Part shown: piece after piece, positions 1 through 5,659 of the stretch
Layout of the letters: each line of letters begins with the position of its first letter
Position numbering within the stretch: the stretch's first letter is position 1
Assembly (NCBI GenBank): GCA_943359335.1
Contig: CALRHC010000005.1
Location: 1 to 51,301 of the forward strand
Length of the DNA: 51,301 bases
Origin: Candidatus Yanofskyibacteriota bacterium
GTDB taxonomy: Bacteria; Patescibacteriota; Minisyncoccia; JACQLN01
Direction of reading: 5' to 3'
Made by a program: the position numbers and the translations under genes
Notes under the pieces: model-generated
Database searches by the model: none
What the model was told of the DNA's origin: nothing
Seen by the model: only the letters and a program-made list of their open reading frames with translations

Positions 1-902
1 GTTTTATCAACTACAAAAGAGATATCGCGTGTAATGGGCGGAAACTTTGAAACTTCTTTAAATTTATTACCTAGTTTTAATTGGCGTTTAACTCTTTCAT
101 CGCTAGACCAAAGCAAACGTATATCTGGTAAATCCATACTTACAATAGCTAAACGTTCTAAACCAAAACCAAAAGCCCAGCCATTATAAACATTTGAATC
201 TACGCCTAGTTTGTCTAAAACACTACCTTTAACCACGCCGCTACCCAAAATTTCTATCCACTTTCCATCGCGCTCTATTTCCATTTCTAAACTTGGATCG
301 GTATAAGGAAAAGTATCTGGATTAAAACGATATTTAACATCAGGGCCAAAAGCCGCCACAGCAATATTCGCCAAAACTTCTTGCAAATCGTCTTTCGTTA
401 TTATTTTTTGATCTTTCGGTACAAGATACCAGCCGTCTATTTGATGAAACACATTCATATGCCGGCGGTCAATTTCATCTTTGCGGTAAACTTTGCCAAA
501 AGAAAAACAACCCACAGCTTCTTTTTTTTCAATTTTTTCTTTTACTCCTTCATTATTTAGATGGTAGTACCACATTACAGTGGTTTGTGTGCGTAAAATG
601 TTTTTGTCGTCTAGATAATAAGTATCGGATTTTGAACGAGTAGGATGATCGGCAGGAAAATCAAATAAATCAAAACTTATACTAACTGGCACTATTTCTG
701 GAACCTCTATAGTATCGAATTCTTTGAAACTTGGGTTTTTTAAAATATTTTGAACAATTTCATTTATGGGGCTTCCAGACAAGCGAGAAAGATCCGGCAT
801 TTCTAAAAAACGCTTCATACGCAAACTTTCGGCATCTGCTTTTAAATCCAGTGCCTTTCTTAATGATTCTGCTTCGGGTGAGTGAATTAATATTCGTGTC
901 AT
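1..902 (-). CDS. pheS: Phenylalanyl-tRNA synthetase, catalytic subunit, mitochondrial-like layout (3' end beyond window)
   Basis: Manual translation from ATG at 902: MTRILIHSPEAESLRK..., with TFPYTDPSLEMEI, WIEILGSGVV, WAFGFGLERLA, DIRLLWSSDERV, then KFPPITRDISFVVDK (FDX-ACB start) at the window edge. Confidence 0.9.
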   Translation of the reverse strand, partial: MTRILIHSPEAESLRKALDLKADAESLRMKRFLEMPDLSRLSGSPINEIVQNILKNPSFKEFDTIEVPEIVPVSISFDLFDFPADHPTRSKSDTYYLDDKNILRTQTTVMWYYHLNNEGVKEKIEKKEAVGCFSFGKVYRKDEIDRRHMNVFHQIDGWYLVPKDQKIITKDDLQEVLANIAVAAFGPDVKYRFNPDTFPYTDPSLEMEIERDGKWIEILGSGVVKGSVLDKLGVDSNVYNGWAFGFGLERLAIVSMDLPDIRLLWSSDERVKRQLKLGNKFKEVSKFPPITRDISFVVDK

Positions 903-1291
903 TCGAGTGAATTCGTATATTGGTGTCGCATTATAAAATAATACTCTATACCTAATATCAGCAGTGAAACCGGAATAACTGTCCAAACTTTCAATAAATT
1001 AAAATGACTTAGCCATAAATAAACAACGGGCATAACGGAAATAAGAAAACCCTGCCTAAATGCCATTTTTAAAATACGTCTAAAACTATCCTCTGTTATA
1101 AACCTTTTTCTAACATAAAAACCAAGCCATGAAAATAGGCTAAAAAATAACAAGAAAATAACACCAGAAAAAAGAGATAAATTTAAACTACTAGCATTAT
1201 AAGGATTTATTAAAAAAATTATAGTAACAAGTGAAATAAGAGAAAGAAAAAAAACAGAACCTAAACCAATCTTTAAAAGCTTCAAACTCAT
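899..1291 (-). CDS. Small multi-TM membrane protein, hypothetical; stop overlaps pheS start (ATGA)
   Basis: 130-aa ORF with about 4 hydrophobic segments. Confidence 0.7.
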   Translation of the reverse strand: MSLKLLKIGLGSVFFLSLISLVTIIFLINPYNASSLNLSLFSGVIFLLFFSLFSWLGFYVRKRFITEDSFRRILKMAFRQGFLISVMPVVYLWLSHFNLLKVWTVIPVSLLILGIEYYFIMRHQYTNSLE

Positions 1292-3816: not shown

Positions 3817-4431
3817 TTAGTTTATATTTGCTACTTGACCATACAATTGATCAACTTTATTCCAATTTATATTTTTAAAAAATGCTTCCAAATAAGCCTT
3901 ACGGTCGGAACCATAATCTAAAAAGTAAGAGTGTTCGTAAACATCTACGTTAAGAACCACAGTACAATTCCAAACACCGCCTTGGTTTTGAGCATCGGCC
4001 GTATAAATATGCAACTTCATATCGGAAAAATCCCAACACAATATTGCCCAACCACGTGCCGCCATCGCCGAAGCTGTAAACATAGCTTTAAAGTTTTCGA
4101 AACTACCCCATTCCTTTTCTATAGCACTTAAAATTTTTGTACCGGCCGCATCACCATTACCACCCAAAATACTAAAAAACATTTGGTGCAGTATCATGCC
4201 GTTAGCCGCAAATGTTTCGCCTTCTTTTAAACCACGTAAATAAGAATATACTTGGTTTCCGGCAGTTAATTCTTCTGGGGTTATTTTAGAAAGCTTCTCC
4301 TCTACTTCGTTTCTTTTATTTACGTAACCCACGTAAAGCTTTTTTTCGTGTATTTCGTTGGTTTTAGCCGAAATTCCATTTAATTCGCCTAAATTAAATT
4401 CTGTTGGTTTATGCATATTATTTTTCGCCAA
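3817..4431 (-). CDS. sodB: Fe/Mn superoxide dismutase
   Basis: LHQMFFSILGGNG, AARGWAILCWD, LNVDVYEHSYFLDYG motifs. Confidence 0.9.
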   Translation of the reverse strand: MAKNNMHKPTEFNLGELNGISAKTNEIHEKKLYVGYVNKRNEVEEKLSKITPEELTAGNQVYSYLRGLKEGETFAANGMILHQMFFSILGGNGDAAGTKILSAIEKEWGSFENFKAMFTASAMAARGWAILCWDFSDMKLHIYTADAQNQGGVWNCTVVLNVDVYEHSYFLDYGSDRKAYLEAFFKNINWNKVDQLYGQVANIN

Positions 4432-4495
4432 TATACGAATTGACGCGAATATAGCTAATGAATTTAATTCGCCATATTAGCGCTGATTAGTTATA

Positions 4496-5659
4496 TTAGT
4501 GAATACTTTTTAATTTTTTAACTTGCTCTATGAAAACTTCTATAAAATTATTTATATCATCTTCTGTGGTAAATCTTCCCAACGTAATCCTAACAGTTCC
4601 CCAAGCTTCATCATCTGTACGGCCAATAGCTTTAATAACATGTGGCGGGGTTGGATTTTTTGCGTCACAAGCCGAACGCGTGGAAATGGCAAAACCAGCT
4701 TCGTCCATAGCCATAACCAATTCTTCCCCTTTAACTGCCGACACAGAAAAGCTGATGTTATTACTAAGCCGTTCGCGAGAGTGACCATTTAACAAGATCT
4801 CTGGTAAAGCCAGTCTAACTTCTTTAATAATCTTATCACGCCATTCCGCCAATTTATCATCTTCCTTTTCCCCTTCGGCTTGAGTTATTTTAATAGCTTT
4901 GGCAAAACCAATAATACCCGAAACATCTTGCGTGCCTGGGCGCAAACCATTTTCTTGCGAACCTCCTACCATTACAGCCGATAATTTTGTTCCGGACTTT
5001 ATATATAAAGCCGATGCACCTTTTGGGCCATATATTTTACTGGAACTAAAAGACATTAAATCTACACCTAAACTATCCATATTTATTTTTATATGCGGGA
5101 CGGCTTGAGCAGCGTCACTAAAGAATAACGGTAGCCCGTTAACCCCCTTTCTCCCCTTAATCCCATTTCCAATCTCTTTAATCGGATTGATCGTCCCAAT
5201 TTCGTTAGAAGCAAAAATAACAGATACTAAAATAGTATCCGGCCTTATAGCTTTTTTAACTTGATCAGCCGACACACTACCAAATTCGTCTACTGGTAAA
5301 TAAGTTACTTCAAAACCATACTCTTCTAAACGCTTAAATGGGTTCAAAACAGAAACATGTTCGGTTTCTGTAGTAATAACATGCATTCCATTTTGTTTAT
5401 TCGCCATCGCTACACCTAAAATTGCAATGTTGTTAGATTCCGTCGTGCTAGAAGTAAAAATAATTTCGTGGGGTTTTGCACCAACAAAACTGGCCACAGT
5501 TTTTCTGGCCTCACCCAAAGCTTTTTGCGACTCCCTACCTTCGTGATACAAACCCGAAGGATTCGCACCTCCGTGTGATAGATACTCGTCCATGACCTCT
5601 TTTACACGATTATCCAAAGGGGTAGCTGCAGCATAATCTAAATAGATTCTATGACTCAT
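4496..5659 (-). CDS. nifS: Cysteine desulfurase (NifS/IscS family)
   Basis: YLDYAAATPLD, TSSTTESNN, SFSSSKIYGPKG, STRSACDAKN. Confidence 0.93.
   Translation of the reverse strand: MSHRIYLDYAAATPLDNRVKEVMDEYLSHGGANPSGLYHEGRESQKALGEARKTVASFVGAKPHEIIFTSSTTESNNIAILGVAMANKQNGMHVITTETEHVSVLNPFKRLEEYGFEVTYLPVDEFGSVSADQVKKAIRPDTILVSVIFASNEIGTINPIKEIGNGIKGRKGVNGLPLFFSDAAQAVPHIKINMDSLGVDLMSFSSSKIYGPKGASALYIKSGTKLSAVMVGGSQENGLRPGTQDVSGIIGFAKAIKITQAEGEKEDDKLAEWRDKIIKEVRLALPEILLNGHSRERLSNNISFSVSAVKGEELVMAMDEAGFAISTRSACDAKNPTPPHVIKAIGRTDDEAWGTVRITLGRFTTEDDINNFIEVFIEQVKKLKSIH

Follow-up and report, generated by a model that had tools for sequence, protein, structure and literature searches.

The window analysed here, a stretch of 51,301 nucleotides corresponding to one whole contig (C5) of a Patescibacteria assembly (591,612 bases in 17 contigs, rated 100% complete), carries at its edge a PheRS gene that raises the question of whether a bacterium can rely on a single-chain enzyme of the mitochondrial type. 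According to a 2010 review, every known prokaryotic species has a heterotetrameric PheRS, whereas the mitochondrial PheRS, the newest branch, which arose through massive domain loss, is the only monomer with a class II core (PMC3275996). Three PheRS forms are distinguished in reviews, with the monomer being exclusively mitochondrial (PMC3275996). AARS Online lists PheRS-M with FARS2 (PMC11580382), and algal plastids hold a monomer-type PheRS derived from a duplicated mitochondrial gene (PMC4494062). Many PheT proteins from CPR bacteria have been reported without a B2 domain, and B2 has been found fused to some TyrRS, in a study where single-chain PheRS goes unmentioned (PMC5370408). The literature on PheRS together with Parcubacteria, Patescibacteria or CPR yielded no description of this form, in a search outside which most subscription journals lay, so that a prior description is possible.

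The evidence presented below indicates, with a probability of roughly 0.9, that this gene encodes the sole PheRS of the organism, an ultra-small bacterium: a chain of ~379 residues in which a short linker joins a class II core to FDX-ACB at the C-terminus, and which would act as a non-editing monomer in charging tRNA-Phe(GAA). The computed basis for this reading is the domain layout, the lack of both PheT and B3/4, the retention of the catalytic motifs, the mutual exclusion with PheST and the position in the tree. A set of bacteria with this mitochondrial-type architecture as their sole PheRS would break the rule of a large, self-proofreading heterotetramer in all prokaryotes.

As the preliminary description had proposed, the catalytic core runs straight into the start of an FDX-ACB domain (Table 1). 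The frame begins with an ATG at position 902, is still open past base 1 after 300 residues, and reads on via VKRQLKLGNKFKEVSKFPPITRDISFVVDK to the window edge, the end of VKRQLKLGNKFKEVSKFPPITRDISFVVDK corresponding to FDX-ACB residues 1-16. Reading past base 1, the check suggested in that description, leads to the last bases of contig C4, where the other FDX-ACB half, cut by the contig end, lies on the minus strand (57940-58146) adjoining gyrB and supplies the remaining 72 residues of the domain. This is the sole FDX-ACB match above threshold in the genome. No overlap was found between contigs C4 and C5, and the gap between them amounts to ~18 nt, judged against L008, a 90% identical relative in which the genes for the 130-aa membrane protein, PheRS and gyrB follow each other in the same order and unbroken (82%, 90-94% and 93% identity with the window genome, respectively). 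The joined protein, with X at the unknown residues, matches PF01409 with an E value of 2.8e-53, and its match to PF03147 (FDX-ACB) spans the full 94 positions with an E value of 5e-21.

Table 1. Positions of the PheRS gene, its domains and motifs and its neighbours; coordinates are those of the window unless a contig or locus is named.
Feature	Position	Strand	Remarks
Single-chain PheRS gene (~379 residues), N-terminal ~300	1..902	-	remainder at C4:57941-58156, minus strand
Class II PheRS catalytic core (PF01409)	81..773	-	182.6 bits, E 2.2e-54
Motif 2 region GKVYRKDEIDRRHMNVFHQ	441..497	-	Arg140 and FHQ invariant in 27 relatives; pairs with FARS2 GDVYRRDQIDSQHYPIFHQ
Phe-pocket motif F198-P-Y200-T201	300..311	-	FPY; FPF in bacterial PheS and FARS2
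Motif 3 GWAFGFGLERL	150..182	-	Arg250 invariant; GWAFG and PDIRLxW common to FARS2
First 16 residues of FDX-ACB (PF03147)	3..50	-	further 72 residues on contig C4
130-aa hydrophobic protein, upstream	899..1291	-	4-nt overlap with PheRS start
B2-type gene, examples outside the window	L101:1039-1464 (+); L113:2633-3040 (-)		24 other loci

Within the genus and family, the three closest genomes have the gene whole, with frames of 377-382 aa, and all four genomes of the order carry a single-chain PheRS. PF01409 followed by PF03147 in one chain was found whole in 79 of 80 relatives, the remaining one being broken by a contig end. The gene for the 130-aa hydrophobic protein is present at just 2 of the 80 related loci, and its product is probably a co-translated neighbour outside the enzyme.

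Among the PDB sequences, the best match of the protein is human mitochondrial PheRS (E 6.4e-56); bacterial alpha subunits come next, with an E value of 5.4e-34 at best, and beta subunits match over FDX-ACB only. An AlphaFold (AF2) model of the L008 protein (pLDDT 92, pTM 0.88) contains only short helices before the core (residues 9-19, 24-34 and 45-54) and no long coiled coil, in agreement with the N-terminus described at the outset. The top Foldseek hit of this model is again human mitochondrial PheRS, over ~388 columns, with a TM score of 0.77-0.79 for the closed form and 0.58 for the open, tRNA-bound form (3TUP). The likeness to the mitochondrial enzyme that had been claimed for the window is thus borne out by sequence, by fold and, the branching order with FARS2 apart, by the tree discussed below.

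Like FARS2 (PDB 3CMQ), its best PDB match by both sequence and fold, the enzyme holds a class II core and a C-terminal FDX-ACB domain in one chain, without coiled coil or B3/4, and bears GWAFG and PDIRLxW around motif 3. However, it is the sole PheRS of a bacterial genome, is only ~31% identical to FARS2, has FPY instead of FPF, and scores 225.4 bits with the NCBIfam model TIGR00469 (pheS_mito), under the cut-off of 258.35; moreover, many of its relatives, the window genome excepted, have a stand-alone gene of the PheT-B2 type upstream. With the bacterial PheS/PheT heterotetramer it shares a homologous catalytic core and FDX-ACB, but it lacks PheT, B3/4, B5, CLM and the N-terminal coiled coil, and stands apart in the tree. 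Judged by the NCBI cut-off, the enzyme is best regarded as a separate lineage of the mitochondrial type rather than as a pheS_mito equivalog.

Regarding its activity, the enzyme keeps motifs 2 and 3 of class II synthetases, and neither Arg140 nor Arg250 varies among 27 relatives. The roles of the Phe-pocket residues have been described (PMC3275996); FPY is present in every single chain where the pocket motif was found, while bacterial PheS and FARS2 hold FPF, and the eukaryotic cytosolic PheRS also has a tyrosine (Tyr412) at the place of the FPY tyrosine (PMC3275996). The protein, predicted to be a monomer from its architecture, would activate Phe and charge tRNA-Phe(GAA), whose gene in the window genome is normal (G000:C4:29267-29339, minus strand). 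The closed state of the model is relevant because the anticodon domain of human mitochondrial PheRS must swing out to bind tRNA (PMC3275996), and the FDX-ACB domain would likewise swing from its predicted closed position to the anticodon, as proposed for the human protein. Due to the lack of a B3/4 domain, hydrolysis of Tyr-tRNA-Phe would, as far as known, be impossible for the single chain, which leads to the prediction of proteomes made without PheRS editing and hence with more Tyr-for-Phe misincorporation. In addition, a small bacterial single-chain PheRS is now available for study.

The preliminary description had made its reading depend on the absence of pheT. No pheT was found above the cut-off in the window genome with the full pheT model, whose only matches were the two halves of the FDX-ACB encoded by the gene itself and, on contig C11, a generic OB protein of the tRNA-binding kind (21.7 bits). 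B3_4 gave zero matches in this genome, and the same search was positive in 14 of 14 control genomes; PF01409 gave one strong match. Two findings had been set beforehand as speaking against the proposal, a lack of FDX-ACB and a complete pheT, and neither was found.

This absence extends to other members of the phylum. A survey of 295 Patescibacteria genomes with a completeness of at least 80%, using B3_4 and a profile built from 27 full-length single chains, detected a single-chain PheRS in 27 of them. The profile scores are bimodal, with 389-718 bits for the main piece of the single chains (four of these 27 pieces belong to genes interrupted by a frameshift or the edge of a contig) and at most 174 bits for the PheS of PheST. 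None of the 27 genomes has a B3/4 domain, compared to 255 of the 268 others (Fisher p 9e-29, a value to be taken as a guide only, since the genomes are related). PheT is likewise absent in all 27, which argues against an assembly gap, and it never exceeded the cut-off in the 30 single-chain genomes that include their near relatives. Both forms coexist within single families (f2, f8, f37, f63 and f77), suggesting that replacement or loss of PheST probably occurred more than once. Outside Patescibacteria, the search covered the 14 control genomes and plasmid records; the latter contained PheS and SrmL only, with no single-chain PheRS, and viral contigs scanned with the single-chain alignment yielded no relative.

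The neighbourhood of the gene in its relatives bears on whether the chain acts alone. In 17 of the 30 single-chain genomes, a frame of 124-184 residues lies directly upstream on the same strand and matches PheT residues ~40-152 of the pheT model at ~90-115 bits. The encoded protein is a B2 tRNA-binding OB fold (PF01588), scoring 94-118 bits as PheT versus 76-99 as YtpR. Of the 107 loci scanned, among which some genes are represented twice, 26 have it upstream of PheRS. The B2 motifs, including KHPxADRL, are invariant among 18 aligned neighbours. These proteins share the PF01588 OB fold and the KHPNADRLRVV motif with PheT B2, YtpR and TapR, but differ in being free proteins of 120-155 residues upstream of a single-chain PheRS, and they score below the cut-offs of YtpR and TapR. 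They could be free tRNA-binding helpers of the single chain, either remnants of PheT or newly recruited. An enzyme that works only with such a separate tRNA-binding subunit, and is therefore functionally two-part, could be envisaged from these neighbours. Nevertheless, the window genome has no B2-type neighbour, holding elsewhere only the generic OB protein on C11; the gene was not detected in 70 of the 80 named loci; and mitochondrial PheRS needs no such subunit. A two-part enzyme is consequently considered unlikely, and a monomer acting on its own remains the preferred reading.

The origin of the single chain was addressed with an unrooted maximum-likelihood tree of the catalytic core and FDX-ACB, comprising 33 single chains, human FARS2 as the only eukaryote (its sequence being taken from PDB alignments, with ~35 middle residues missing), two SrmL, and the PheS and PheT ends of nine other bacteria and 19 Patescibacteria. 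The split between single chains, FARS2 and SrmL on one side and all PheST on the other received a UFBoot value of 100 with both domains, 100 with the core and 93 with FDX-ACB. Within the former side, single chains join FARS2 in the FDX-ACB tree (UFBoot 99) and SrmL in the core tree (92). The comparison with mitochondrial PheRS proposed in the preliminary description therefore places single chains, FARS2 and SrmL together apart from PheST, but the branching order with FARS2 admits several solutions: alternative orders of FARS2, SrmL and single chains are compatible with the data (AU p 0.40-0.61), and constraint trees separating FARS2 were not rejected. The FDX-ACB of single chains is 42% identical to that of FARS2 versus 28% to that of PheT, and their core is 38% identical to FARS2 versus 34-35% to PheS.

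Tentatively, at somewhat less than even odds, the single chain may represent a third bacterial PheRS, a non-editing enzyme that replaced PheST in parts of Patescibacteria, is often accompanied by a free PheT-B2-type protein, and shares the same fused ancestor with mitochondrial PheRS. If so, mitochondrial PheRS would derive from a bacterium in which the fused enzyme was present beforehand, instead of being fused in early eukaryotes. Bacterial relatives are available for dating the fusion behind the mitochondrial enzyme.

A local fusion, within Patescibacteria and independent of mitochondria, of their own pheS core with the 3' end of their own pheT could be envisaged from the occurrence of PheST in the same phylum and from reduced PheT proteins without B3/4 (396 aa in G172, 439 aa in G236) that resemble steps of such a reduction. 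However, Patescibacteria PheST is ordinary, with 51% identity to other bacterial PheS, and the single-chain core is equally far from Patescibacteria PheS (33.9%) and from other PheS (34.7%), while the single-chain FDX-ACB sides with FARS2. The AU test rejects a tree that places the single chains with PheST of Patescibacteria (p 0.0015), which makes a local fusion very improbable.

The two short PheT proteins, encoded at L160:4339-5526 (-) in G172 and L161:1390-2706 (+) in G236, hold B5, CLM and FDX-ACB without B3/4, and their adjoining PheS genes encode ~255 aa. Patescibacteria thereby have a second reduced, non-editing PheRS, this one with two subunits. G209, from the same genus as G172, retains B3/4.

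Finally, it is most improbable that the gene encodes an accessory PheS-related ligase like SrmL ('PheS-related mystery ligase'), with a housekeeping PheRS missed in the assembly: the SrmL model NF051887 is the best-scoring NCBIfam model (246.3 bits), and SrmL, found on plasmids, has the same core plus FDX-ACB layout in one chain and lies with the single chains in the split from PheST, but the score lies under the cut-off of 300 and far from the 515-524 bits of true SrmL proteins, PheT is missing each time in the 27 genomes, and SrmL, on a very long branch, has an HPYT pocket that lost the Phe kept in the FP[FY]T of PheRS, single chains included. The sole PheRS of the organism is thus the reading retained for the gene. 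The SrmL examples come from plasmids of Azotobacter and Glutamicibacter; in Glutamicibacter, SrmL adjoins a gene for chloramphenicol efflux. In C. diphtheriae, a partial SrmL-like match lies between erm(X) and tet(65). The loci concerned are L139:5845-6960 (+), L140:5836-6945 (+) and L141 around 4001-4591 (+).

Whether tRNA-Phe, through its position 37, could serve to tell the PheRS types apart was also considered. The tRNA-Phe(GAA) of the window genome carries G37, not the usual bacterial A37, and all pattern-matched single-chain genomes have G37, no A37 match coming from a single-chain genome. Nevertheless, G37 is common among Patescibacteria whichever PheRS they have and occurs in most PheST genomes as well, and the marker was discarded. 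Two odd adjacent tRNA-like genes were also observed in the window genome at G000:C1:52638-52801 (-), locus L189: one is an 81-nt tRNA-Gly(GCC) whose D-loop is large, the other a gene with poor pairing that ARAGORN predicts as tRNA-Phe(AAA) (33.5 bits), and they may be degenerate.
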